Source: Natrinema longum (lineage in GTDB: Archaea; Halobacteriota; Halobacteria; Halobacteriales; Natrialbaceae). From it: DNA of 64,000 nt. A program made the translations under genes and the position numbers. Below the pieces are notes generated by a model, which searched no databases, had not been told where the DNA came from, and saw nothing but the letters and a program-made list of their open reading frames with translations. The stretch spans positions 2,790,001 to 2,854,000 of the forward strand of contig NZ_CP071463.1 of NCBI RefSeq assembly GCF_017352095.1, written 5' to 3'. Positions 5,170 to 17,636 of this stretch are shown in pieces (the first letter of the stretch is position 1; the number at the start of each line of letters is the position of its first letter).

Positions 5170-7392
5170 CTAGCCGCCGTGGCCAGGGTAGTCGCGCTCG
5201 AACCGATCTTCGATTTCGCTCTCGTCGAACTGGACGATCACCGGCCGGCCGTGTGGACAGGAATAGGGGTTCTCACAGTCGTCTAGCGCCGCCAGCAGGT
5301 CGACGACCGACCCCTCGGTCAGCGACGTGTTGCCGGTGATCGACGGATAACACGCGAGGTCGCCGAGGAACTCGTCGGCCAGCGCGTCGACCGTCTCGGC
5401 CCCCGCCTCGCGGTCGCCGGCGACGAACGAGGCCAGCACGTCCCGCAGCCGGTCGGGTTCGAGGGTCGCCTCGAGCACCGCGGGGACGGTCGTCACCGCG
5501 ACGGTGCGGTCGTCGATCCGGTCGGCGTAGAACCCCAGTCGCGAGAGCGCCTCGCTGTACTGTTCGAACGCTTCGGCTTCGGCCGCCGTCAACTCGAGTT
5601 CGACGGGCGCTGCGAGCGCCTGCGCGCTCGGATCGTCCGCGAAGGCATCCTGCAGACGCTCGTAGTTGACCCGCTCGTCGGCGGCGTGCTGGTCGATCAG
5701 GACGAGCCCGTCGGGCGTCTCACAGACCAGATAGGTGTCGCGGAGCTGGCCCAGCACCCGAAGCGAGGGCAGCGACTCGAACTCGGATCGCTCGCCCGTC
5801 GCGGCCTCGCCGGTCAGCGTCCGCTGTTCGGTGGCCGCGTCGAACTTGCGTCCGGGGTCGAGATCGCAATTCGGCTCCGCCGTCGAGTCGTGGTCCCGAC
5901 CCGATGCCGGTGGAGCCGAGCCCGTCCCCGGCGAATCGGCCGCGGAACGGCGACTCGTCTCGGAGCCCGTCGCTGCATTCGGTTCCGTCGCGGTCGCCGA
6001 TTCCTCGTTCCGGCTACTCGAGGCGGGGCGTTGATCCGCGGATCGATCGGCGACGGCGGCGTCCGAACTGCTCGGATCGGGTTCCGCCTCCTCGCTCGAG
6101 TCGCCGTTCCCACCCCCGCTCGCGGGGTCGGTTGTCGGCGGTTCGGCGTCCGCTCCGGCGGTCGACGCCGAGGTCTCCGATCCGGCCTCGCGGTCGCCGT
6201 CGGCCGATCCGTCGGCGGGCGAGGGTGTGTCGGCGCTGCGCTCGAGCGTGGTCGGCTCCGAGGCGGGCGAATCGGCCCCGCGAGTTCCGGGTTCGATTCG
6301 CGCCTCGCCCGGTGCCGACCGACCGCGGGGGGCGCGAGACCGGAGGAGGCCGTGCTCGAGCAGGGCGCTCTCGACCGCGGCGTCGACCTGCCGGCGGACC
6401 GCGTCGTCGTCGTCGAAGCGGACCTCCCGCTTGCGCGGGTGGACGTTCACGTCGACCGCGTCGCCGGGGACCTCGAGGAAGAGCGTCACGAAGGGGTAGC
6501 GGTCGCCGCCCAGTTGCGTCCCGTAGGCCCCCATGATCCCCTCGCGGACGGCGTCGGCCGTGACGGCACGGCCGTTGACGTAGGTCGCGAGGTAGTCCCG
6601 ACTCGAGCGGTTCGTCTCCGGGTGGGAAACGAGGCCGGAGACGGACTCGAGCGGTCCCGGCGGGAGGTCGTCGCCGTCGGCGTCGACGGGGATCATCGCC
6701 GAGGCGACCTCGCGGCCGTAGACTGCCAGGACGGCGGCCTGGAGGTCGCCCTGGCCCGTCGTCGAAAACACCTCGCGGCCGTCGTGGGTCAGCGTGACCG
6801 CCACGTCCGGGTTCGCGAGCGCGTAGCGCGTGACGACGCGATTGACGTGGGAGAACTCCGTCGCGGTCGTCTTGAGGAACTTCCGGCGAGCGGGGGTGTT
6901 GTAGAACAACTCCTCGATCTCGACCGTCGTCCCCTCGGGACAGCCCGTCGGCTCGACGCTGGTCACGTCGCCGCCCTCGTAGACGAGTTCCGTCCCCGCG
7001 CCCTCGCTCTCGCGGGGTCGCGAGCGGATGGTCAGCCGCGAGACCGAGCCGATGGTGTGCAGCGCCTCGCCGCGGAAGCCAAGCGTCGCGACGCCCGACT
7101 CGAGGTCCTCGAGCCCCTCGATCTTGCTGGTCGTGTGTTCCCGGACCGCCGCCCGGAGGTCGGCCTCGCTCATCCCGCGGCCGTCGTCGGCGACTCGGAT
7201 CAGTTCGGTGCCGCCCGCTTCGACGGTGACGTCGACGCTGTCGGCGTCGGCATCGAGGCTGTTCTCGACGAGTTCCTTCACCGCGCTGGCGGGCCGCTCG
7301 ACGACCTCGCCGGCGGCGATGCGGGCGACGGTGGCCTCGTCTAACTGGTGGATATCGGTGTCGTGCTGGGATGGGGTACTCTCGTCGCTCAT
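5170..7392 (-). CDS. mutL: DNA mismatch repair protein MutL, endonuclease type
   Basis: A 740-residue MutL. Residues about 15-340 are the GHKL ATPase: the Asn/Glu motif is ELVENSLDA, then DDGRGM and GFRGEAL, with the S5-like second half ending near VNVHPRKREVRF. Residues about 365-535 are a Ser/Glu/Asp-rich low-complexity linker. The C-terminal dimerization domain carries the nicking endonuclease motif DQHAADERVNYE (DQHAx2Ex4E), plus ACYPSI and CPHGRP. MutL therefore should nick DNA after MutS finds a mismatch, as in PMS2-type proteins and unlike E. coli MutL. mutS lies 2.8 kb upstream on the same strand, with two other genes between. Confidence 0.97.
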   Translation of the reverse strand: MSDESTPSQHDTDIHQLDEATVARIAAGEVVERPASAVKELVENSLDADADSVDVTVEAGGTELIRVADDGRGMSEADLRAAVREHTTSKIEGLEDLESGVATLGFRGEALHTIGSVSRLTIRSRPRESEGAGTELVYEGGDVTSVEPTGCPEGTTVEIEELFYNTPARRKFLKTTATEFSHVNRVVTRYALANPDVAVTLTHDGREVFSTTGQGDLQAAVLAVYGREVASAMIPVDADGDDLPPGPLESVSGLVSHPETNRSSRDYLATYVNGRAVTADAVREGIMGAYGTQLGGDRYPFVTLFLEVPGDAVDVNVHPRKREVRFDDDDAVRRQVDAAVESALLEHGLLRSRAPRGRSAPGEARIEPGTRGADSPASEPTTLERSADTPSPADGSADGDREAGSETSASTAGADAEPPTTDPASGGGNGDSSEEAEPDPSSSDAAVADRSADQRPASSSRNEESATATEPNAATGSETSRRSAADSPGTGSAPPASGRDHDSTAEPNCDLDPGRKFDAATEQRTLTGEAATGERSEFESLPSLRVLGQLRDTYLVCETPDGLVLIDQHAADERVNYERLQDAFADDPSAQALAAPVELELTAAEAEAFEQYSEALSRLGFYADRIDDRTVAVTTVPAVLEATLEPDRLRDVLASFVAGDREAGAETVDALADEFLGDLACYPSITGNTSLTEGSVVDLLAALDDCENPYSCPHGRPVIVQFDESEIEDRFERDYPGHGG

Positions 7393-7576: not shown

Positions 7577-8377
7577 TCAATCCTGCAGTCCCAGATCCTG
7601 TGACATCGAGTTCCCGGCGCGGGGGACGCCTTTCACCGTCACGGTCTCGCCGTTCATGAAGGAGGCGGCGGGGCTGGCGAGGAACTGTGCGACGTCGGCG
7701 ATCTCCTCGCCGTGGCCGATGCGGCGATCGGTCTCCTCGCGGGGCGGCATGTCCTCGCTGTCGATGCCGAGCGTCTCGGCGACGCCGGGGGTCTGGATCA
7801 GGCCCGGCGCGATGCAGTTGACGCGGATGCCGTCTTCGGCCCATTCCGTGGCGAGCGTCTCGGTCAGGCGGATGATCGCGGCCTTGGACGCGCCGTAGTG
7901 GCTCTCGCCGGGCGCGGCGTGTTGTCCGTTGACCGACGAGAGGTTGATGATGACCCCACCGTCGCCCTCGCGCATGACCTCGCCGGCGAGTTGCGTACAG
8001 TGGACGGTGCTGTTGAGGTTGAGGTCGACGATGGTCTTCCAGCCGTTCGCGGAGATGTCCTCGAAGGGCGCGACGAACTCCCCGCCGGCGTTGTTCACGA
8101 GGATGTCGACGTCGCCGAACTCCTCGACCGTCTCGTCGACGAGGGTCCGGACCTGCTCGCGCTCGCGGACGTTGCACTCGACGGCGAGCGCGTCGCCAGC
8201 GTCCGCGGCCTCGTTGATCCCCTCGGCGACCGGTCCCACGCGATCCATCGATCGCGAGCAGATCGCGACGTTCGCCCCGCTTGCCGCGAGTGTTTCCGCG
8301 ATCGATTGGCCGATCCCCTGGCTCGCACCGGTGACGATGGCGGTCTTCCCTGCCACGTCGAACGTTGCTTCGTGCAT
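7577..8377 (-). CDS. Short-chain dehydrogenase/reductase (SDR)
   Basis: A 266-residue classical SDR. The NAD(P) binding motif is TGASQGIG near residue 17, NNAG follows at about 93, and the catalytic Ser, Tyr and Lys are in INLSSVNG and the YGASK segment. The C-terminus has the usual IAPGLIQTPG. It resembles 3-oxoacyl-reductase or glucose dehydrogenase-like SDRs, but the substrate is not determinable. Arg in CSRSMDR after the second strand hints at NADPH. It sits between mutL and the LOV kinase on the same strand, with gaps over 170 bases, so it probably has its own promoter. No functional link with mismatch repair is visible. Confidence 0.88.
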   Translation of the reverse strand: MHEATFDVAGKTAIVTGASQGIGQSIAETLAASGANVAICSRSMDRVGPVAEGINEAADAGDALAVECNVREREQVRTLVDETVEEFGDVDILVNNAGGEFVAPFEDISANGWKTIVDLNLNSTVHCTQLAGEVMREGDGGVIINLSSVNGQHAAPGESHYGASKAAIIRLTETLATEWAEDGIRVNCIAPGLIQTPGVAETLGIDSEDMPPREETDRRIGHGEEIADVAQFLASPAASFMNGETVTVKGVPRAGNSMSQDLGLQD

Positions 8378-8548: not shown

Positions 8549-10117
8549 TTAGTCACTGGCGTCGGCGCGCGGTACGTCGAGGCAGATCGTCGTTCCGTTC
8601 GAACCGGTCTCCTCGACGGTGATCGTGCCCCGTGAGAGCGTCGCGATCCAGTACACGAGCCAGAGCCCCATTCCGAGGCCGTGGTAGAGGGGTTCGACGG
8701 CCTGATCGCCGGTGAGAATCCGTGCTTCCTCCTCGGGAAGGCCGGGGCCGTCGTCGGTGATTCGTATCCGGACGGTCTCGGGCCGACGGTCGACGCGAAG
8801 CACGACGGCCGGTTGCGATCGCTCGCCGTGGGCGAGTCCGTTCTCGACGAGTTCCCGAATCGCCGTTTCGAGGGCCGGGATCGCCGAGACGGTCACTGCG
8901 GACGCTCCCTCGAGCGTGATCTCGGCGTCGGGATACTCCGTCGCGACGGTTCGAATCACTCGGCGGCACAGCGGCTCGATCTCGATCGGGCCCGGGGACG
9001 GACGGTCGCTCAAGAGGCGAACGATCGATCGATGCTTGTCCGTGATTCCCAGCAAGTGGTCCGTCTCCTCGATGATCGTTTCCGCGGCGGTCTCGGCGTC
9101 GGTCGCTCCCTCGAGGAGTTGTTCGGCAGTACCCCGGACGATGTTCAGTTGATTGGAGAGGTTGTGACGCAAGACCCGGTGCAACACTCGGAGTTGCCGG
9201 GTCGCTTCCTTGCGGTCGGTGACGTCCTGCTGGAAGCCGACGTAGTTCATCACGTCGCCGTCGTCGTTCGCAACCGGGGCGATGGTAACCCGGTTCCAGA
9301 ATTCGCTCCCGTCCTTGCGGTAGTTGCGGAGTTCGACCGTACACGGCCGTTCGGCGTCGATGGCCGCCCGCATCTCCGCGAGCGGTTCGGGGTCGGTTCG
9401 AGGCCCCTGCAGGAACCGGCAGTTCCGCCCGAGAGCGTCTTCACGCGCGTATCCGGTGAGCCGTTCGAACTGCTCGTTCGCGTAAATGAGTGGATTGTCG
9501 TCGTCGGGCGCACTGAGGGTGATCCCGATCGGGGCCTCGTCGATCGCTCGGTTCTTCAACTCGAGTTCCCGTCGCCGTTCGGCGCGGCGGTGGTTCCGAA
9601 GGGCGCGATGCACGACGTCTGCCACGTCACCGGCGAACCGGATTTCGGCGTCGCTCCACTCGCGAGTCCGTCCGACCTGCTCGTGACAGACCATGCCGAT
9701 CACGTCGCCGTCGGCCCGGACCGTCGCGTCCAGCAGCGAGTCGATCCCCGCTGGCTCGAGATACGCCGCCGTCAGTTCGCGCGTTCGCGGATCCGACCGG
9801 GCGTCGACGGCACTGATCGACCGATGCGTTCGGAGCGCCTCGAAGTACGCGGGGTAGTCGGACGCGGTTAGTTCGGTCCCAGCAGTGTGCTCGTCCGTGC
9901 GTCCGTCGTACCGATCGACACAGCGGACGTGATCGCCGTCGAAGAGCCAGATACTGGCGCGCGTGCAGTCGACGGTTCGGACGGCCGTTTCCGTAATCGA
10001 GCGTACTGCATCGTCGAAGTCCCCGTCGACGACAGTCTCCTCTCGCATGAGCTCGAGGACCGCCTCGTGGTGGCCGCGGTCTCGCTGCCGGTCGCCGCCC
10101 TCGTTCTCGACTGTCAT
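8549..10117 (-). CDS. GAF-LOV histidine kinase, probable blue-light sensor
   Basis: A 522-residue soluble kinase. Residues about 20-175 form a GAF domain. Residues about 185-310 are a PAS domain of LOV type: it has the GRNCRFLQG motif with the photo-adduct Cys at about 233, the flavin-contacting NYRKDG and FWN segments, and the GFQQDV strand with the signalling Gln. Residues about 325-520 are the kinase: phospho-acceptor His in LRHNLSNQ, N-box NGLAHGE, G boxes DDGPGLP and GLGMGLWL. No membrane segment or response regulator is adjacent. The ATG at 10117 was chosen because the upstream extension to 10765 reads in mutS antisense. Light sensing is an inference from complete LOV residues. Confidence 0.9.
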   Translation of the reverse strand: MTVENEGGDRQRDRGHHEAVLELMREETVVDGDFDDAVRSITETAVRTVDCTRASIWLFDGDHVRCVDRYDGRTDEHTAGTELTASDYPAYFEALRTHRSISAVDARSDPRTRELTAAYLEPAGIDSLLDATVRADGDVIGMVCHEQVGRTREWSDAEIRFAGDVADVVHRALRNHRRAERRRELELKNRAIDEAPIGITLSAPDDDNPLIYANEQFERLTGYAREDALGRNCRFLQGPRTDPEPLAEMRAAIDAERPCTVELRNYRKDGSEFWNRVTIAPVANDDGDVMNYVGFQQDVTDRKEATRQLRVLHRVLRHNLSNQLNIVRGTAEQLLEGATDAETAAETIIEETDHLLGITDKHRSIVRLLSDRPSPGPIEIEPLCRRVIRTVATEYPDAEITLEGASAVTVSAIPALETAIRELVENGLAHGERSQPAVVLRVDRRPETVRIRITDDGPGLPEEEARILTGDQAVEPLYHGLGMGLWLVYWIATLSRGTITVEETGSNGTTICLDVPRADASD

Positions 10118-10209
10118 CGAGTCATACCATGTTTCGTATCGGATCGAAAGAAACTTCGGGTCGGTCCGGATCGGGTTTCGCGTCCCCGAGCGCGACGCCC
10201 CGAGGGGCG

Positions 10210-12891
10210 CTACTCCTCGAGTCGGTCCTGTAGCTTCTGGACCTTCGAGACGAGTTCGATTGGTGGCGTCGCGTTGACGTCGATCGACTCGAACTCCTCG
10301 AGGACCGCCTCGGTGTCGGGATCGATCGGCTGCCCTTCGGGTCCGGCCTCCGTGGGACCGCCGTCGGTCGATGCCGCCTGCCTCTGTGACTGCTCCTCGG
10401 CTCGTCCCTGGGTCTGCATCGTCCCGCTCCCCAGATCGAAGACCGCCTGAACGGGCTCGCTCGAGCCCCCGCCCTTTGCCTCGATGGCCTTCTCCTCGCG
10501 CAGACGCTCTAAGACGTCCCGCGAGCGGTCGACGACGGGGTCCGGAACGCCGGCGAGGTCGGCCACGTGGATCCCGTAACTTCGATCCGTCGGCCCATCC
10601 CGGACGGTACGGAGGAACGTCACCTCGCCGTCCCGCTCGTCGGCCGCGATGTGGACGTTGGCGACGCGCGGGAGCGTCTCGGCGAGCCCCGTCAACTCGT
10701 GGTAGTGTGTCGCGAAGAGCGTTTTCGCCTGGACCTCGTTGTGAAGGTACTCGGTCGCCGCCCACGCGATCGAGATCCCGTCGTACGTCGCAGTTCCGCG
10801 GCCGACCTCGTCCAAGATGACCAGCGACTCCTCGGTCGCGGTGTGGAGGATGTTCGAGAGTTCGCTCATCTCGACCATGAACGTCGACCGTCCCTGTGCG
10901 AGTTCGTCCAGCGCGCCGACCCGCGTGAAGATGCCGTCGACGAGGGAGATCTCGGCCGCCTCCGCCGGGACGAAGCTCCCGATCTGGGCGAGCAACACGA
11001 TGCAGGCGACCTGTCGCATGTACGTCGACTTCCCGGACATGTTGGGGCCAGTGACGACCAGAAAGCCCCGATCCTCGTCCAGTCGCACGTCGTTGGGGAC
11101 GAACTCCGTCGTCTGCTCGACGACCGGATGCCGACCCTGCTCGATCTCGAGTCGGTCGTCACGATGCAGGTCGGGCTGAACCCAGCGGTTTTCGGCCGCG
11201 TGGGTCGCCAGACTGGCCAGTGCGTCGACCGTCGCCAGCGCCCGCCCGACGTCCTGGAGCAGTTCGGCCCGCGCGGCGACCGCCTCGCGAAGCTCCGCGA
11301 AGAGTTCGTACTCGAGTTCGCCGCGGCGTTCCTCGAGCCGGAGGATCTCGCGTTCTTTCTCCTCGAGTTCGTCGGTGGTAAACCGCTTGGAGTTTTTGAG
11401 CGTCTTGATCTCCTCGTAGTGGTCGGGAACGCCGTCGGCGGCGGACTTGCCGACCTGGATGTAGTACCCGTCAGTTTTGTTCCGGTCGACGGTGACGTGG
11501 GAGAGCCCGTACTGCGCTTTCTCGCGCTCGGCGAGGCTCCCGAGCCACCCTTTGACTTCCTCGTGACGGTCGATCACCTCGTCGAGGTCGTCGTCGTAGC
11601 CATATTGGAGGAGTTCCCCCTGGGTCACCGTCGACGGCGGCTCGTCGGCGATCGCCTCCGCGAGGGTCTCCCGCAACTCCGCTGCGAGATCCCGATCCGG
11701 CCGGTCGACGATCTCCGAGAGGGGTGAGTCGGCAAGTTCCGGGTTCGACGCGACGATATCGGCCACCGCGGGCAGGACCGCCAGCGTCTCCTGGACGGCG
11801 AGCAGGTCCCGCGCGTCCGCGCTGCCGTGGGTCGCCTTCGAGGCGAGCCGCGCGAGGTCGTATGCCTCGCCGAGCGTGTCCTGTATCTCGTCGCGGGCGA
11901 GCGCTGCCGTCGAGAGCGCGGCGACGCTCTCCTGACGGTCCTCGAGGCGCTCGAGCGAGCGCCGCGGACGCTGGAGCCACTCCTTCAGTAGGCGGCCGCC
12001 GGCGCTGGTTTCGGTGTGATCGATCGTCGCGAACAACGATCCCTCGCGCTCGCCCTGCATGGTCTCGGTGAGTTCGAGGTTACGCTGGGTGGTCGCGTCC
12101 AGCGTGACGTGGTCGTCGCCGTGATGGGCCTGAATCCGGGTCATCGAGGCGAGCACGCCCGCACCGGTCTCGTCGACGTAGGAGAGGATCGCGCCGGCCG
12201 CTGCGACGGTCGGGGAGCCGACCGTTAGCCGGTCGACGGTCTCGGTACCGAACTGCTCGCGAACGGCGTGGTCGGCGCGCTTGGGCGCGAACGATTCGGT
12301 GTCGTGGAGCGTCAGCGCCGCGTCGACCCGCTCGCGGATCGTCCCCAGCAGTTCGTCGTCGGTTCGGACGTCCGGTCCCGGCAGGATTTCGACCGGATCG
12401 AACCGGTACAGTTCCGTCAGCGCGTCGTCGGCGTCCGTCGCGTCCGCGACGAGGAACCGCCCGGTCGTCACGTCGGCGAACGCGAGCCCGTACGCGTCCT
12501 CGGTCCCGCTCGAGCCGCCGTCGACGATCGCCGCGAGGTACTGGGCGTCGGCGTCGGTCGTCTCGAGTAGGGTGCCCGGCGTCACGACGCGGACGATCTC
12601 CCGTGCGTGCCCGGAATCGGTCTCATACTGGTCGGCGACGGCGACGCGATAGCCGCGCTCGACTAAGGCCTTGAGGTAGGGAGTCAGATCGTCGAGTGGC
12701 ACGCCGGCCATGGGGTAGGACGAGCCGTGCGAGGACTTCTGGGAGACTTTGAGATCGAGTTCCTCACTGACTCGTTCGGCATCGTCGCCGAAGAACTCGT
12801 AGAAATCGCCACACTGCATCGCCAATAAGTCGGCGTCGGTTCCCTCTTTCAGGGAGAAGTACTCTCCGACGATACCCGTCGCCTCGGTCAT
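10210..12891 (-). CDS. mutS: DNA mismatch repair protein MutS
   Basis: An 893-residue MutS1-type protein that recognises mismatches and small loops. The N-terminal recognition domain has the mismatch-wedging Phe-x-Glu in QCGDFYEFFG. Connector, lever and clamp domains fill the middle, and the ATPase domain has Walker A TGPNMSGKST (about residue 615), Walker B VILDEVGRGT and FATHYHELTG. The C-terminal tail after about 800 is Gln/Gly/Ser-rich and ends in a short helical segment typical of the tetramerization region. I chose the ATG at 12891; a GTG at 12912 would add seven residues. The LOV kinase starts 92 bases downstream on the same strand. Confidence 0.97.
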   Translation of the reverse strand: MTEATGIVGEYFSLKEGTDADLLAMQCGDFYEFFGDDAERVSEELDLKVSQKSSHGSSYPMAGVPLDDLTPYLKALVERGYRVAVADQYETDSGHAREIVRVVTPGTLLETTDADAQYLAAIVDGGSSGTEDAYGLAFADVTTGRFLVADATDADDALTELYRFDPVEILPGPDVRTDDELLGTIRERVDAALTLHDTESFAPKRADHAVREQFGTETVDRLTVGSPTVAAAGAILSYVDETGAGVLASMTRIQAHHGDDHVTLDATTQRNLELTETMQGEREGSLFATIDHTETSAGGRLLKEWLQRPRRSLERLEDRQESVAALSTAALARDEIQDTLGEAYDLARLASKATHGSADARDLLAVQETLAVLPAVADIVASNPELADSPLSEIVDRPDRDLAAELRETLAEAIADEPPSTVTQGELLQYGYDDDLDEVIDRHEEVKGWLGSLAEREKAQYGLSHVTVDRNKTDGYYIQVGKSAADGVPDHYEEIKTLKNSKRFTTDELEEKEREILRLEERRGELEYELFAELREAVAARAELLQDVGRALATVDALASLATHAAENRWVQPDLHRDDRLEIEQGRHPVVEQTTEFVPNDVRLDEDRGFLVVTGPNMSGKSTYMRQVACIVLLAQIGSFVPAEAAEISLVDGIFTRVGALDELAQGRSTFMVEMSELSNILHTATEESLVILDEVGRGTATYDGISIAWAATEYLHNEVQAKTLFATHYHELTGLAETLPRVANVHIAADERDGEVTFLRTVRDGPTDRSYGIHVADLAGVPDPVVDRSRDVLERLREEKAIEAKGGGSSEPVQAVFDLGSGTMQTQGRAEEQSQRQAASTDGGPTEAGPEGQPIDPDTEAVLEEFESIDVNATPPIELVSKVQKLQDRLEE

Positions 12892-13008
12892 AGTCGGAGA
12901 CTCTGCTTCCACTCCAAAAACCCTGCGGGATCCGCGGTGAAAGTGGTCGGTCGGCGACCGGCGACCCCATCAGGTTCAGTTCCCGGTACGCCCGAATGGG
13001 AGTCCCGG

Positions 13009-13439: not shown

Positions 13440-14195
13440 ATGTCAGCACAGCGAGATCACCGCGTCTTGGTTCCAGTCGACGTTCTCGAGGGCCAGAGCG
13501 TGCCGCGAACGATCGTCGACGCGTTCGCGTCGATTCCGGTCGTCTTGCTCGGCTATCGCGAGTTGCCCGACCAGACCGGGCCCGATCAGGCACGCGAACA
13601 GTACGGCGACCGCGTGCAGGCGGAACTCGCGGAACTCCGGACGGTGTTCGAAGACGCCGGCTGTGACGTCACGTCGCGATCGGCGTTCACCCACGACCGG
13701 CTGAAGACGTTCGAACGCGTCGCCGTCGACGAATCCTGTGACGCCGTCCTGGTGCTCAATCCGGCACCCGTCCTCGAGACGGTACTCGTCGCGATACGTA
13801 GCGACGTCAACGTCGAACACATCGCGGGGCTGCTCGGAACGATCCTCACCGACACGGCCCTCGAACTCATGCTGTTTCACGTCGTCTCGGACGAGACAGC
13901 GCGTGACGGGGGAGTCGAACTCCTCGAGGCGGCACGTTCGGAACTGGTCGCGGTAGGAGTCGATACGGGCCGAATCGACAGCAGGGTCGTCGTCGACGAT
14001 TCGCCCACGGACGCCATTCTCGAGGCCGCGACCGAGCACGATCTCCTCGTCGCGGGTGAAAGCCGGCCGTCGATCCGTCGGTTCGTCTTTCGCGACCGGG
14101 CCGAACGGCTGGCCCGTCGGACGGTCGATCCGGTGCTCGTGATTCGCGGCGAGTATCTCGAATCGGACGAGGAGGACGCGGTCGACGACGGATAA
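13440..14195 (+). CDS. UspA-type universal stress protein (two-domain arrangement)
   Basis: A 251-residue soluble protein. It opens with a Usp first strand, RVLVPVDVLEGQSVPRTIVDAF, and closes with a second Usp-like half ending in DLLVAGESRPSIRRFVFRDRAERLARRTVDPVLVIRG, the usual G-x2-G-x9-G(S/T) type nucleotide loop being altered. It shares the string LPxQTxPDQARxQY and FTHDR with the stress protein gene at 15511-16218, so the two are paralogues. No transporter overlaps it. Role in stress or in regulating transport is inferred from family only. The gene is divergent from the tRNA-binding-domain gene. Confidence 0.8.
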   Translation: MSAQRDHRVLVPVDVLEGQSVPRTIVDAFASIPVVLLGYRELPDQTGPDQAREQYGDRVQAELAELRTVFEDAGCDVTSRSAFTHDRLKTFERVAVDESCDAVLVLNPAPVLETVLVAIRSDVNVEHIAGLLGTILTDTALELMLFHVVSDETARDGGVELLEAARSELVAVGVDTGRIDSRVVVDDSPTDAILEAATEHDLLVAGESRPSIRRFVFRDRAERLARRTVDPVLVIRGEYLESDEEDAVDDG

Positions 14196-14296
14196 CGGAC
14201 GAACCGTCGTCCCCCGTTCGATCGATCCGTCCGCGACCGGATTCGCCACGTTCTGTCTGACTCGCGGCGAACACGACGCGGAGTGAAGATACAAGA

Positions 14297-14304
14297 CTTA
14301 TTTA
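14297..14304 (+). promoter_or_regulatory. TATA box of the CynX-like transporter gene
   Basis: CTTATTTA is centred about 31 bases before the GTG start at 14332, so the transcript would be almost leaderless, which supports that GTG as the start. Confidence 0.45.
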
Positions 14305-14331
14305 CTGGAGTTGGATTGATAGACCGAGCAG

Positions 14332-15495
14332 GTGAAACGGAACCGAACGGTACTGCTGATCGGCCTACTGCTGGTCGCACTGAACTTCAGGCCGGCGATC
14401 ACGTCGATACCGCCGGTGCTCGAGGCGATCCGCGCCGATCTGGGACTCAGTTACACTGCGGTGAGCCTGCTTACGACGGTTCCAACGCTTCTGATAGGGA
14501 TCTTCGCGTTTTCCGCAGCACCCGTTTCCCGGCTGCTCGGGCGGGAACGTGCGATTCTGTGGGCGACCGTCCTCGTCGGTGTGGGGACGGCACTACGGGT
14601 CTGGGGGGCGACCGCGATCGTCCTGTTCGGGACCACCGTCTCGATCGGCATCGGGATCGCGATCAGCCAGACGCTCCTGCCGTCGATCGTCAACGATTAC
14701 TTTCCCGAACGGGCAGCACTCGTGACCGGGCTCTACACCACGAGCCTGGGCATCGGTGCGGCCGTGGCAGCCGGCGGAACCGCCCCGCTGACTGGCGTTC
14801 TCGGATCGTGGCCCAGGGCACTCGCCGTCTGGGCGGTGTTGGCCGGTATCGCCGCCGCCGTCTGGGCACCGATCAGTCGGTCCGACGACGCCGGTTCGCG
14901 TGGGGCGCAGTCGACGCAGAAACGGCTTCCGTGGCGGCACACCGGGGCGTGGATCACGACGCTGTTTTTCAGCGCGCAGACACTTCTGTACTACTCTGAG
15001 CTGACGTGGCTCGCACCGCTGTACGTCGATCTGGGGTGGGGGACGGAACAAGCGGGGTTCGTCCTGACCCTGTTCGTGATCGCACAGCTGGGTGGCTCCC
15101 TCGGTATTCCGGCGCTGGCCGACCGCTGGACGGATCGCCGGCCGTGGCTCGTGCTGGCGGGCGTCCTGAACGCGATCGGTCTCGGGGGGTTCGTCTGGTT
15201 CCCGTTCGTGAGTCCGTGGGGATGGGGCATCCTCACCGGCATCGGGATGGGAGGGCTGTTCGCGCTCGGTCTGACGCTTCCGAGCGATTTGGCCCCGAAC
15301 GCGGACGCCGCCGGCCGGCTCACCGCGATGATGATCGGCGTGGGCTACGTCGTCGGCGCGGTCGGCCCCGTTGCCATCGGCGGGGCGCGTGATTTACTCG
15401 GCAGTTACGGTCCGTCGTTCATCGTGCTCCTGGGACTCAACGTCGCGATGCTCGTCACGATGCTGTGGTTCCGGCCGAATCGGAGCGTCTCGTAG
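14332..15495 (+). CDS. MFS transporter of the CynX/NimT type
   Basis: A 387-residue protein with about 12 hydrophobic helices. The N-terminus, LLLVALNFRPAITSIPPVLEAIRADLGLSYT, is characteristic of the CynX/NimT branch of the major facilitator superfamily (cyanate or nitroimidazole resistance transporters), with the conserved NxRP motif in helix 1. The second half has the motif LADRWTDRRPWLV. The real substrate is unknown. Translation begins at GTG 14332, immediately before the basic residues KRNR. It lies between the two UspA-like genes, which face it on either side: one upstream on the same strand and one downstream converging. Confidence 0.82.
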   Translation: MKRNRTVLLIGLLLVALNFRPAITSIPPVLEAIRADLGLSYTAVSLLTTVPTLLIGIFAFSAAPVSRLLGRERAILWATVLVGVGTALRVWGATAIVLFGTTVSIGIGIAISQTLLPSIVNDYFPERAALVTGLYTTSLGIGAAVAAGGTAPLTGVLGSWPRALAVWAVLAGIAAAVWAPISRSDDAGSRGAQSTQKRLPWRHTGAWITTLFFSAQTLLYYSELTWLAPLYVDLGWGTEQAGFVLTLFVIAQLGGSLGIPALADRWTDRRPWLVLAGVLNAIGLGGFVWFPFVSPWGWGILTGIGMGGLFALGLTLPSDLAPNADAAGRLTAMMIGVGYVVGAVGPVAIGGARDLLGSYGPSFIVLLGLNVAMLVTMLWFRPNRSVS

Positions 15496-15510
15496 TCTGC
15501 CGCCTCGGCT

Positions 15511-16218
15511 CTAACGACTCGCGTCGTCAGGTTCCTCGGGGTTTCGGACGACGAGTACTGGCCCGACCGACTCGGCAGCGACGCGTTCGGCCTCCTCACC
15601 GAAGAGGAACGACCGGAGCGAGGGGGCTCGTTCGCCCATAACGACGGCGTCGTGGCCGGCCGCGGCGTCGATAAGCCCCTCGACGGGGGGTTCGTCGACG
15701 GCGAGTTCGGTCTCCACGTCGATGCCGTGCTCCGAGAGGAGCGTGGCCGCGGACTCGAGCGACTCCCGCCCGCCGGTCCCGTCGTCGGTCGCGAGAAAGA
15801 GCGTGATATCGATTCCGCGCTCGTCGACCAGTTCGGCGACGAACGCGCAGATCCGTTCGACGGCGACGGTGCCCGTCACTGTCACCAGAAGTCGCTCGAT
15901 CGGCCCAGTCACACCCGTGATCGCGTAGGCGTCCGCTCCTGTCTCCGATGCGATTCGATCGATCGTTTGCTCCCGGTCGTGCGTGAACACGAGGCGGTGG
16001 TCGGCCCGCCCGCCGGCCGCCTCGAACTCCGCCACGAGATCGGTCAGCGCATCGGTCGCTTGCTCCTCGTACTGGAGTCGGGCCTGGTCCGGCGGCGTCT
16101 GCTCGGGCAGGACGTGATAGCCAAGCACGGTCACGTCCATCGGCTCGAGCAGCGTCGTCAGTCCAGCCGAAATCGATTCACCCTCGAGTATTGCCAGCGG
16201 AACGAGTACGTGTGTCAT
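15511..16218 (-). CDS. UspA-type stress protein coupled to the amino-acid permease
   Basis: A 235-residue protein starting with [20 protein letters not shown], a Usp first strand, and ending with a second Usp-like half (VVMGERAPSLRSFLFGEEAERVAAESVGPVLVVRNP). It has the same LPEQTPPDQARLQY and FTHDREQ segments as the stress protein at 13440. Its ATG shares one base with the TAA stop of the permease (TAATG), so the two are translationally coupled. In many haloarchaea APC permeases carry C-terminal Usp domains; here the Usp part is a separate gene and probably regulates the permease in the cytoplasm. That last point is inference. Confidence 0.85.
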   Translation of the reverse strand: MTHVLVPLAILEGESISAGLTTLLEPMDVTVLGYHVLPEQTPPDQARLQYEEQATDALTDLVAEFEAAGGRADHRLVFTHDREQTIDRIASETGADAYAITGVTGPIERLLVTVTGTVAVERICAFVAELVDERGIDITLFLATDDGTGGRESLESAATLLSEHGIDVETELAVDEPPVEGLIDAAAGHDAVVMGERAPSLRSFLFGEEAERVAAESVGPVLVVRNPEEPDDASR

Positions 16219-17636
16219 TAGAGGACCCCCTTCAGCGTCACGTCCCGGGCGTAGTAGGCGTGCCACCCGGCAGTGACGATCATGATACCGATACCGATGA
16301 ACTGTGACGTGCGTTGCATGAATCCGATCAGGGCGAAACTGGCGAGCGCACCGAGTATCGGGACGGCCGGATAGCCGGGAACGCGGAAGTCGGGATCGTA
16401 CCACTCCGGTTCGTCGCGGCGCACTGCGAGCAGCGCCACGCAGATCAGCCCGTACATGACGAGGTGCAGAAACGAGGCGACTTCCGCGAGCAGTTCCACG
16501 CGGCCGGTCGCGACCAACAAGAGTATTGGCCCACCGGCCATCCCGAGCGCGACGTGTGGCGTGCCATAGCGGAGATTGATGTGACTCGCGCGTCGCGGTA
16601 ACAGGGCGTCCTTCGAGACGGCGTAGATGGCTCGAGACGTGCTGAGGACCGACGCGTTGGCACTCGACATCGTCGCGAGCAGTCCGCCGAAGACGATCGC
16701 GAACGCCCCGGCCGCGCCGAGATAGTGGCGGCCGACCTCGACCATCGCCGTCTCGCCGAATTCCGAGAGTTGCTCGCTCCCGAACGCACTCGTCGCGACG
16801 AAGACCGTCACGACGTAGAGAACGCCGACGATGACCACGGAGCCGACCATCGCCAGCGGCAGGTTTCGACCGGGATCTTTCATCTCCCCGGCGACGGTCG
16901 CCACCTGTGCGAACCCGAGATACGAGGTGAACACGAGCGCCGCGGTCGTCAGGATAGGGAGCGTCCCGAACGGTGCGAACTGCTCGGGGGCGGTCGATTC
17001 GCCGACGAGACCGACTGCATCGAGTCCGCCGTATCCGAGGAAAACCACGAGAATCGACAGCAACAACGCGACGATTCCGTTTTGGAGTTTCGCCGCGTTT
17101 TCCGTCCCCGTGACGTTCAAAACGGTAAAGCCCGCGCCGAACAACAGCGCCAGCGGAATGACGAGGCCGTCACCGACCGCGACGCCGAGTTCCGCGAGCG
17201 TATCGACGGCGTAGTAGCCGAAGCCGACGAGGTAAAACGCCGTCGCGAACACCAGTCCGAACCACAGCGACAGCCCGACGACGGTCCCGGCGAGCGTGCC
17301 CAGCCCGCGGGAGATATAGTAGTAGCCGCCCCCGCTTTTCGGCATCGCCGTCGCGAGTTCGGAGGTCGGCAACGCGACCAGAAGGGCGACGAGCGCGCCG
17401 ACGGCGAACGACGCTGCCGCAGCGGGGCCGGCCTCCCCGGCTGCCAGCCCCGGAAAGACGAAGATGCCGGCCCCGATCATCGTCCCGATCCCGATCGCTA
17501 ATCCACCGGAGAGCCCGAGCGTCCGCTCGAGTTCGGCATCGTCGGTAATCGTGGCTTCGTCGGTCTCGACTGTCGGCTCGACCTGTGGCGACTCCCCTTC
17601 GATGTTGGTTCCACCGGTCGACGACGTGTCGCCCAT
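16218..17636 (-). CDS. APC-family amino acid permease
   Basis: A 472-residue membrane transporter with about 12 helices. An acidic N-terminal tail of about 35 residues is followed by [28 protein letters not shown], the glycine-rich helix 1 of APC amino acid/cation transporters, with the broken-helix motif GAGIF. It ends shortly after helix 12 with VTLKGVL, so the C-terminal regulatory Usp domains found in many haloarchaeal relatives are absent and instead encoded by the next gene. The ATG at 17636 is the only good start. The amino acid transported is unknown. Confidence 0.88.

Follow-up and report, generated by a model that had tools for sequence, protein, structure and literature searches.

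The 64,000-nucleotide stretch of Natrinema longum DNA analysed here (hereafter the window) encodes, directly after mutS, what is quite probably a soluble blue-light LOV kinase of the haloarchaeal type, whose place beside mutS most probably stems from an old insertion with a promoter of its own rather than from any function in repair. A preliminary description had read the gene as a histidine kinase whose LOV domain has every key residue, a part of the interpretation that stands, and had raised light control of repair, a part that is not supported. The gene and the main elements of its product are located as follows:

8549..10117, minus strand: coding sequence of the GAF-LOV-histidine kinase, 522 aa, with the ATG at 10117 and the stop at 8549-8551
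9602..10021, minus strand: GAF domain, residues 33-172 (Pfam PF01590, E-value 1.9e-13)
9215..9526, minus strand: LOV domain (PAS_9), residues 198-301 (89.6 bits in Pfam, cut-off 27), with adduct Cys233 in GRNCRFLQG
9164..9166, minus strand: predicted phospho-acceptor His318, in RVLRHNLSNQLN, invariant in the 11 listed orthologs
8567..8875, minus strand: HATPase_c catalytic domain, residues 415-517 (PF02518, 54.6 bits, cut-off 26.4)

The fusion of GAF and kinase modules described earlier is borne out by Pfam, as the GAF, PAS_9 and HATPase_c profiles all score above their cut-offs on this single 522-aa coding sequence (the protein used as query in the searches was its translation without the last Asp). 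Sequence inspection located the N, G1 and G2 boxes of the HATPase_c domain (N426, DDGPG and GLGMGL). Concerning the phospho-acceptor region, the HisKA profile reached 17.8 bits against a cut-off of 26.9, and H318 is the same residue in all 11 listed orthologs. The AlphaFold model of the kinase, built on a 4-row alignment, was poor, with a mean pLDDT of 61 and values below 50 over residues 191-240.

Inspection of the LOV domain led to all of GRNCRFLQG, NYRKDG, FWNR and NYVGFQQDV. C233, Q237, R250, N265, N275 and the Gln of the last strand (Q296) are present, and we take these six residues to be flavin contacts from the roles known in LOV structures. The pattern used by Losi et al. (2014) to search for LOV domains, [NS]-x2-[FPGHSA]-x4-[GEQR]-x(9,11)-C (PMC4844311), is matched exactly by N214-C233. 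The LOV domains assigned to group A in the Lake Diamante study have a G-beta/H-beta turn with Arg in the first and Asp in the third position, an Arg following FWN, and Tyr or Trp in place of a Phe near the flavin (PMC12202551). By our own residue mapping onto that description, R267, D269, R276 and Y292 correspond to these archaeal signatures, the turn with R267 coming after N265-Y266 and the Tyr (Y292) aligning with the flavin-stacking Phe. The top PDB matches are LOV photoreceptors, namely the YtvA-FixL chimeric entry 4gcz (E-value = 7e-33) and YtvA itself (2mwg, E-value = 8e-30). Additionally, GxNCRFLQ occurs in 2 among the best 30 of the 44 PAS_9 stretches of the genome, and the NCRFLQG DNA pattern has exactly 2 sites in 3.59 Mb against 0 for the reversed control, so the motif is not a product of chance. 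The earlier claim of a full set of key LOV residues (GRNCRFLQG, NYRKDG, FWN and YVGFQQDV) is thus upheld by motifs, published pattern and PDB homology alike, and the window gene carries, as judged from its sequence, a LOV domain that is confidently homologous to the solved LOV photoreceptors.

Some LOV-like domains have no photocycle. Orthologs were defined as the top matches that reach 58% or more across the LOV and kinase regions (the next best being 46%, with at most 11 candidates scored per genome); among the matches listed, such an ortholog exists in 11 of the 125 genomes of the family Natrialbaceae, and both GRNCRFLQG and the RxLRHNL H-box are intact in 11/11. These data bear on the possibility that the domain binds flavin but senses redox state or oxygen, or acts as a structural element, light not being its natural signal. 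Homology and motif are no proof of function, distant relatives include flavin-binding PAS sensors like NifL, and signalling by LOV receptors devoid of the cysteine has been reported (PMC4682037). We nevertheless regard such a role as unlikely, since neither the adduct Cys nor the motif Gln varies among the 11 listed orthologs, a constancy difficult to account for unless the adduct forms, and the NifL equivalog model yields 86 bits, far under its cut-off of 242.

The orthologs differ in domain layout. Nine are arranged as GAF-PAS-LOV-HK, and GAF-LOV-HK is restricted to the two proteins of the window's species (G000, the window's genome, and G060). The junction of interest is:

9558..9569, minus strand: GGAACTCGAGTT at the GAF-LOV junction, the site where the orthologs hold an extra PAS domain

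Comparison of 9558-9569 with an orthologous locus (L062) showed that the window's gene lacks the PAS domain which separates GAF from LOV in the ortholog, where a 12-bp direct repeat lies at the ends of the deletion. Specifically, in genome G068 the 12-bp GGAACTCGAGTT borders the middle PAS on both sides as a direct repeat, while the window has one copy. As a single copy is left at the junction, the middle PAS was probably lost in the window's species by recombination between the 12-bp direct repeats, with deletion of the intervening segment. The natural loss of the domain between GAF and LOV offers a ready comparison between two lengths of one sensor. It could also be asked if the deletion broke signalling and left a decaying remnant in the window's species, given that GAF-PAS-LOV-HK is retained in the nine orthologs from other species and that such genes do decay, as a short fragment of another kind of LOV kinase in G057 indicates. 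We find this scarcely credible, because the reading frame is open, the motifs are all intact and the protein of N. ejinorense (G060) is 98% identical with the layout of the window.

A working photosensory kinase being the preferred reading, blue light would link Cys233 covalently to the bound flavin, and the resulting change would be passed through the helix following the LOV domain (approximately residues 300-336) to the phospho-acceptor helix, altering the autophosphorylation of His318 by the HATPase domain. The GAF domain may serve as a second input. The phosphate would then be transferred to a receiver protein whose gene presumably lies elsewhere in the genome: in agreement with what had been noted before, the search for receiver-domain genes found none in the 64-kb window or in the 10 loci with a mutS-adjacent ortholog. 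The genome as a whole has 30 HATPase matches (mutL included) versus 12 receiver matches over the cut-off, which suggests that unpaired kinases are usual in it.

Synteny around the gene involves three neighbors, all encoded outside the sensor:

10210..12912, minus strand: mutS
7577..8377, minus strand: SDR-family dehydrogenase
5170..7392, minus strand: mutL, following the SDR gene and absent from the preliminary description

The order is thus mutS, kinase, SDR and mutL on one strand, with a gap of 92 nt between mutS and the kinase, and the position previously assigned to the gene is correct, as mutS ends at 10210 on its upstream side and the SDR gene lies downstream. A second mutS paralog, 44% identical, is located at 633641-636112 of contig C1 of the same genome. 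For comparison, mutS neighborhoods were collected from 115 of the 117 family genomes with a mutS match, leaving out the partial matches of G020 and G033, while 8 of the 125 genomes gave no match at the search threshold. Downstream of mutS, these 115 neighborhoods contain the SDR gene in 53 cases, mutL in 87 and both in 50, and the kinase ortholog directly follows mutS in 10 (4 of the 29 Natrinema genomes, 5 of the 6 of g10 and 1 of the 3 of g8). On a mutS tree these ten fall into three clades and require at least four changes (FastTree, weak backbone). The adjacency spans three genera and is found in 10 of the 11 genomes with a listed ortholog; the eleventh ortholog, that of N. mahii (G061), does not neighbor mutS. 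Since place and orientation are the same, we favor a single origin of the linkage followed by losses or by exchange between genera. Elsewhere the slot after mutS is occupied by membrane proteins, a PfkB-like protein or transporters (names mostly assigned by eye). A receiver-only response regulator lies directly after mutS and on the same strand in six g19 genomes (loci L157, L159, L160, L164, L167 and L168).

The region between mutS and the kinase contains one conserved element:

10118..10160, minus strand: conserved 43-nt upstream block, with CCCRAAR and then TTCnTTC at -43 to -29

The block keeps a constant spacing to the ATG in 10/10 loci, and mean identity between Natrinema and the other genera is 65% for -45 to -1 versus 34% for -90 to -45. 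It is likely, on the pattern of conservation, a promoter of the BRE/TATA type belonging to the kinase gene, whose leader would be short or absent. A default assignment of the gene to an operon with mutS was rejected in view of the set spacing of the block and of genome G069, in which about 380 bp more separate mutS from it. A coding origin of the block was rejected as well, as in the g10 genomes no start codon stands between the last stop and this ATG. A fold of the stretch that separates mutS from the kinase showed a stability no greater than that of shuffles (z = 0.49). The conserved block at its set spacing, together with the varied cargo found after mutS, argues that the kinase gene is independent of mutS, and its location would represent an old insertion into a variable stretch of the mutS-mutL neighborhood.

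Control of mismatch repair by the kinase has to be weighed against that reading. Under such control, blue light in a sunlit brine would act through the output of the kinase on the expression or activity of mutS and mutL, and the proposal draws on the kinase directly following mutS in the same orientation, with mutL as the second gene beyond it, and on an adjacency that, kept in three genera and in 10/11 genomes with a listed ortholog, is more stable than would be expected of a random passenger. It also draws on three other Natrinema species (G058, G071 and G074), where a different LOV kinase, of the PAS-LOV-PAS-HK type by eye, is found near mutS. This one (loci L112, L115 and L120) starts approximately 1.5-1.7 kb upstream of the mutS start, in divergent orientation and between two Usp genes, and G057 holds a short fragment of it at the same place. 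In the window, the corresponding region (13440-16404) has an MFS transporter between two Usp genes upstream of mutS, the content of the slot varying by species. We give little weight to this second kinase because it was noticed post hoc, its place is variable and nothing comparable occurs among the genomes tested outside the family.

Against repair control stand the absence of the kinase from 105 of the 115 family mutS neighborhoods, its own conserved upstream block, the variety of genes filling the slot after mutS, and the location of the second LOV kinase between two Usp genes, where the window has the MFS transporter. Outside the family, no LOV motif occurs within 20 kb of mutS in any of 93 genomes, 69 of which have LOV motifs, a count (0/93) to be read with the limits of exact-motif matching, of contig breaks and of distances compared by eye. 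The set comprised 93 of 95 genomes, the 2 without a mutS match being left out of the LOV search, and the nearest LOV-mutS pair in it is about 28.5 kb apart (G151). Moreover, the mutation rate of Halobacterium has been found not to depend on MutS and MutL (PMC2816208). Set against this contrary evidence, the linkage in 10/11 genomes and the second LOV kinase leave the idea weak, and we consider it highly unlikely that the kinase controls repair. Also highly unlikely is the wider conjecture that a tuning of MutS-dependent processes by blue light in sunlit brines, whether of mismatch repair or of recombination between divergent DNA, is the reason for which LOV kinases were retained next to mutS on two occasions in Natrinema and its relatives. 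Light control of repair, raised earlier, is not supported in view of the 10/115 neighborhoods, their three clades, the upstream element, the varied slot and the 0/93 outside the family. No paper linking LOV domains with mutS was found in the open-access literature; were such a link demonstrated, it would add a novel type of light response, for which the present evidence is weak.

The LOV motif itself is widespread. By the NCRFLQG DNA pattern, with complete per-genome counts, it is present in 108 of 125 Natrialbaceae genomes and in 69 of the 93 tested genomes of other families, so LOV genes are common in haloarchaea. The second site of the window's genome (G000:C1:1492572-1492889) belongs to a LOV-GAF-HTH protein of the Bat type (HTH by eye), in which the Cys is intact; the Bat of Halobacterium is without it according to PMC4844311. 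With just two LOV motifs by pattern search, the genome makes the kinase a clean candidate. The same genome has one photolyase-type gene and four rhodopsin genes, from which we conclude that light matters to the organism.

YtvA carries a STAS domain. Its LOV core and adduct motif (2mwg, and 4gcz for YtvA-FixL) are as in the window kinase, which scores 143.4 bits against the YtvA family model (NF052652), below the cut-off of 250, and the kinase parts differ. The bacterial blue-light-activated histidine kinases (NF052306; 6ph4) are alike in joining a LOV sensor to a histidine kinase, but the BluLightHisKinLov equivalog gives 150.9 bits where 450 mark its cut-off, and the window kinase has an RVLRHNL H-box and HATPase_c. 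In the Bat-type protein of its own genome (C1:1492572) the LOV domain is similar, and the protein ends in a DNA-binding HTH (by eye) and not in a kinase.

The closest systems are the haloarchaeal LOV histidine kinases. Archaeal LOV kinases have been predicted in numbers, and the available portions of PMC12202551 and PMC4844311 describe photochemistry for one archaeal LOV and no output pathway. That LOV domain, ALovD-1, belongs to a histidine kinase of Halonotius and shows a photocycle in salt of up to 3 M (PMC12202551). It is likewise an archaeal LOV with the adduct Cys in a PAS-rich kinase, but Tyr replaces the Phe of its motif and it is the middle one of three PAS domains, whereas the window LOV has Phe and follows GAF. 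Haloarchaeal LOV histidine kinases (PMC4844311; PMC12202551) share with the window kinase the LOV domain with GAF or PAS inputs, the C-terminal histidine kinase, the group-A signatures and the class Halobacteria, and differ only in that here GAF directly precedes LOV without a PAS and the gene is placed after mutS. By its sequence, the kinase is thus a further case of the already known haloarchaeal LOV kinases, set apart by a minor change of architecture.
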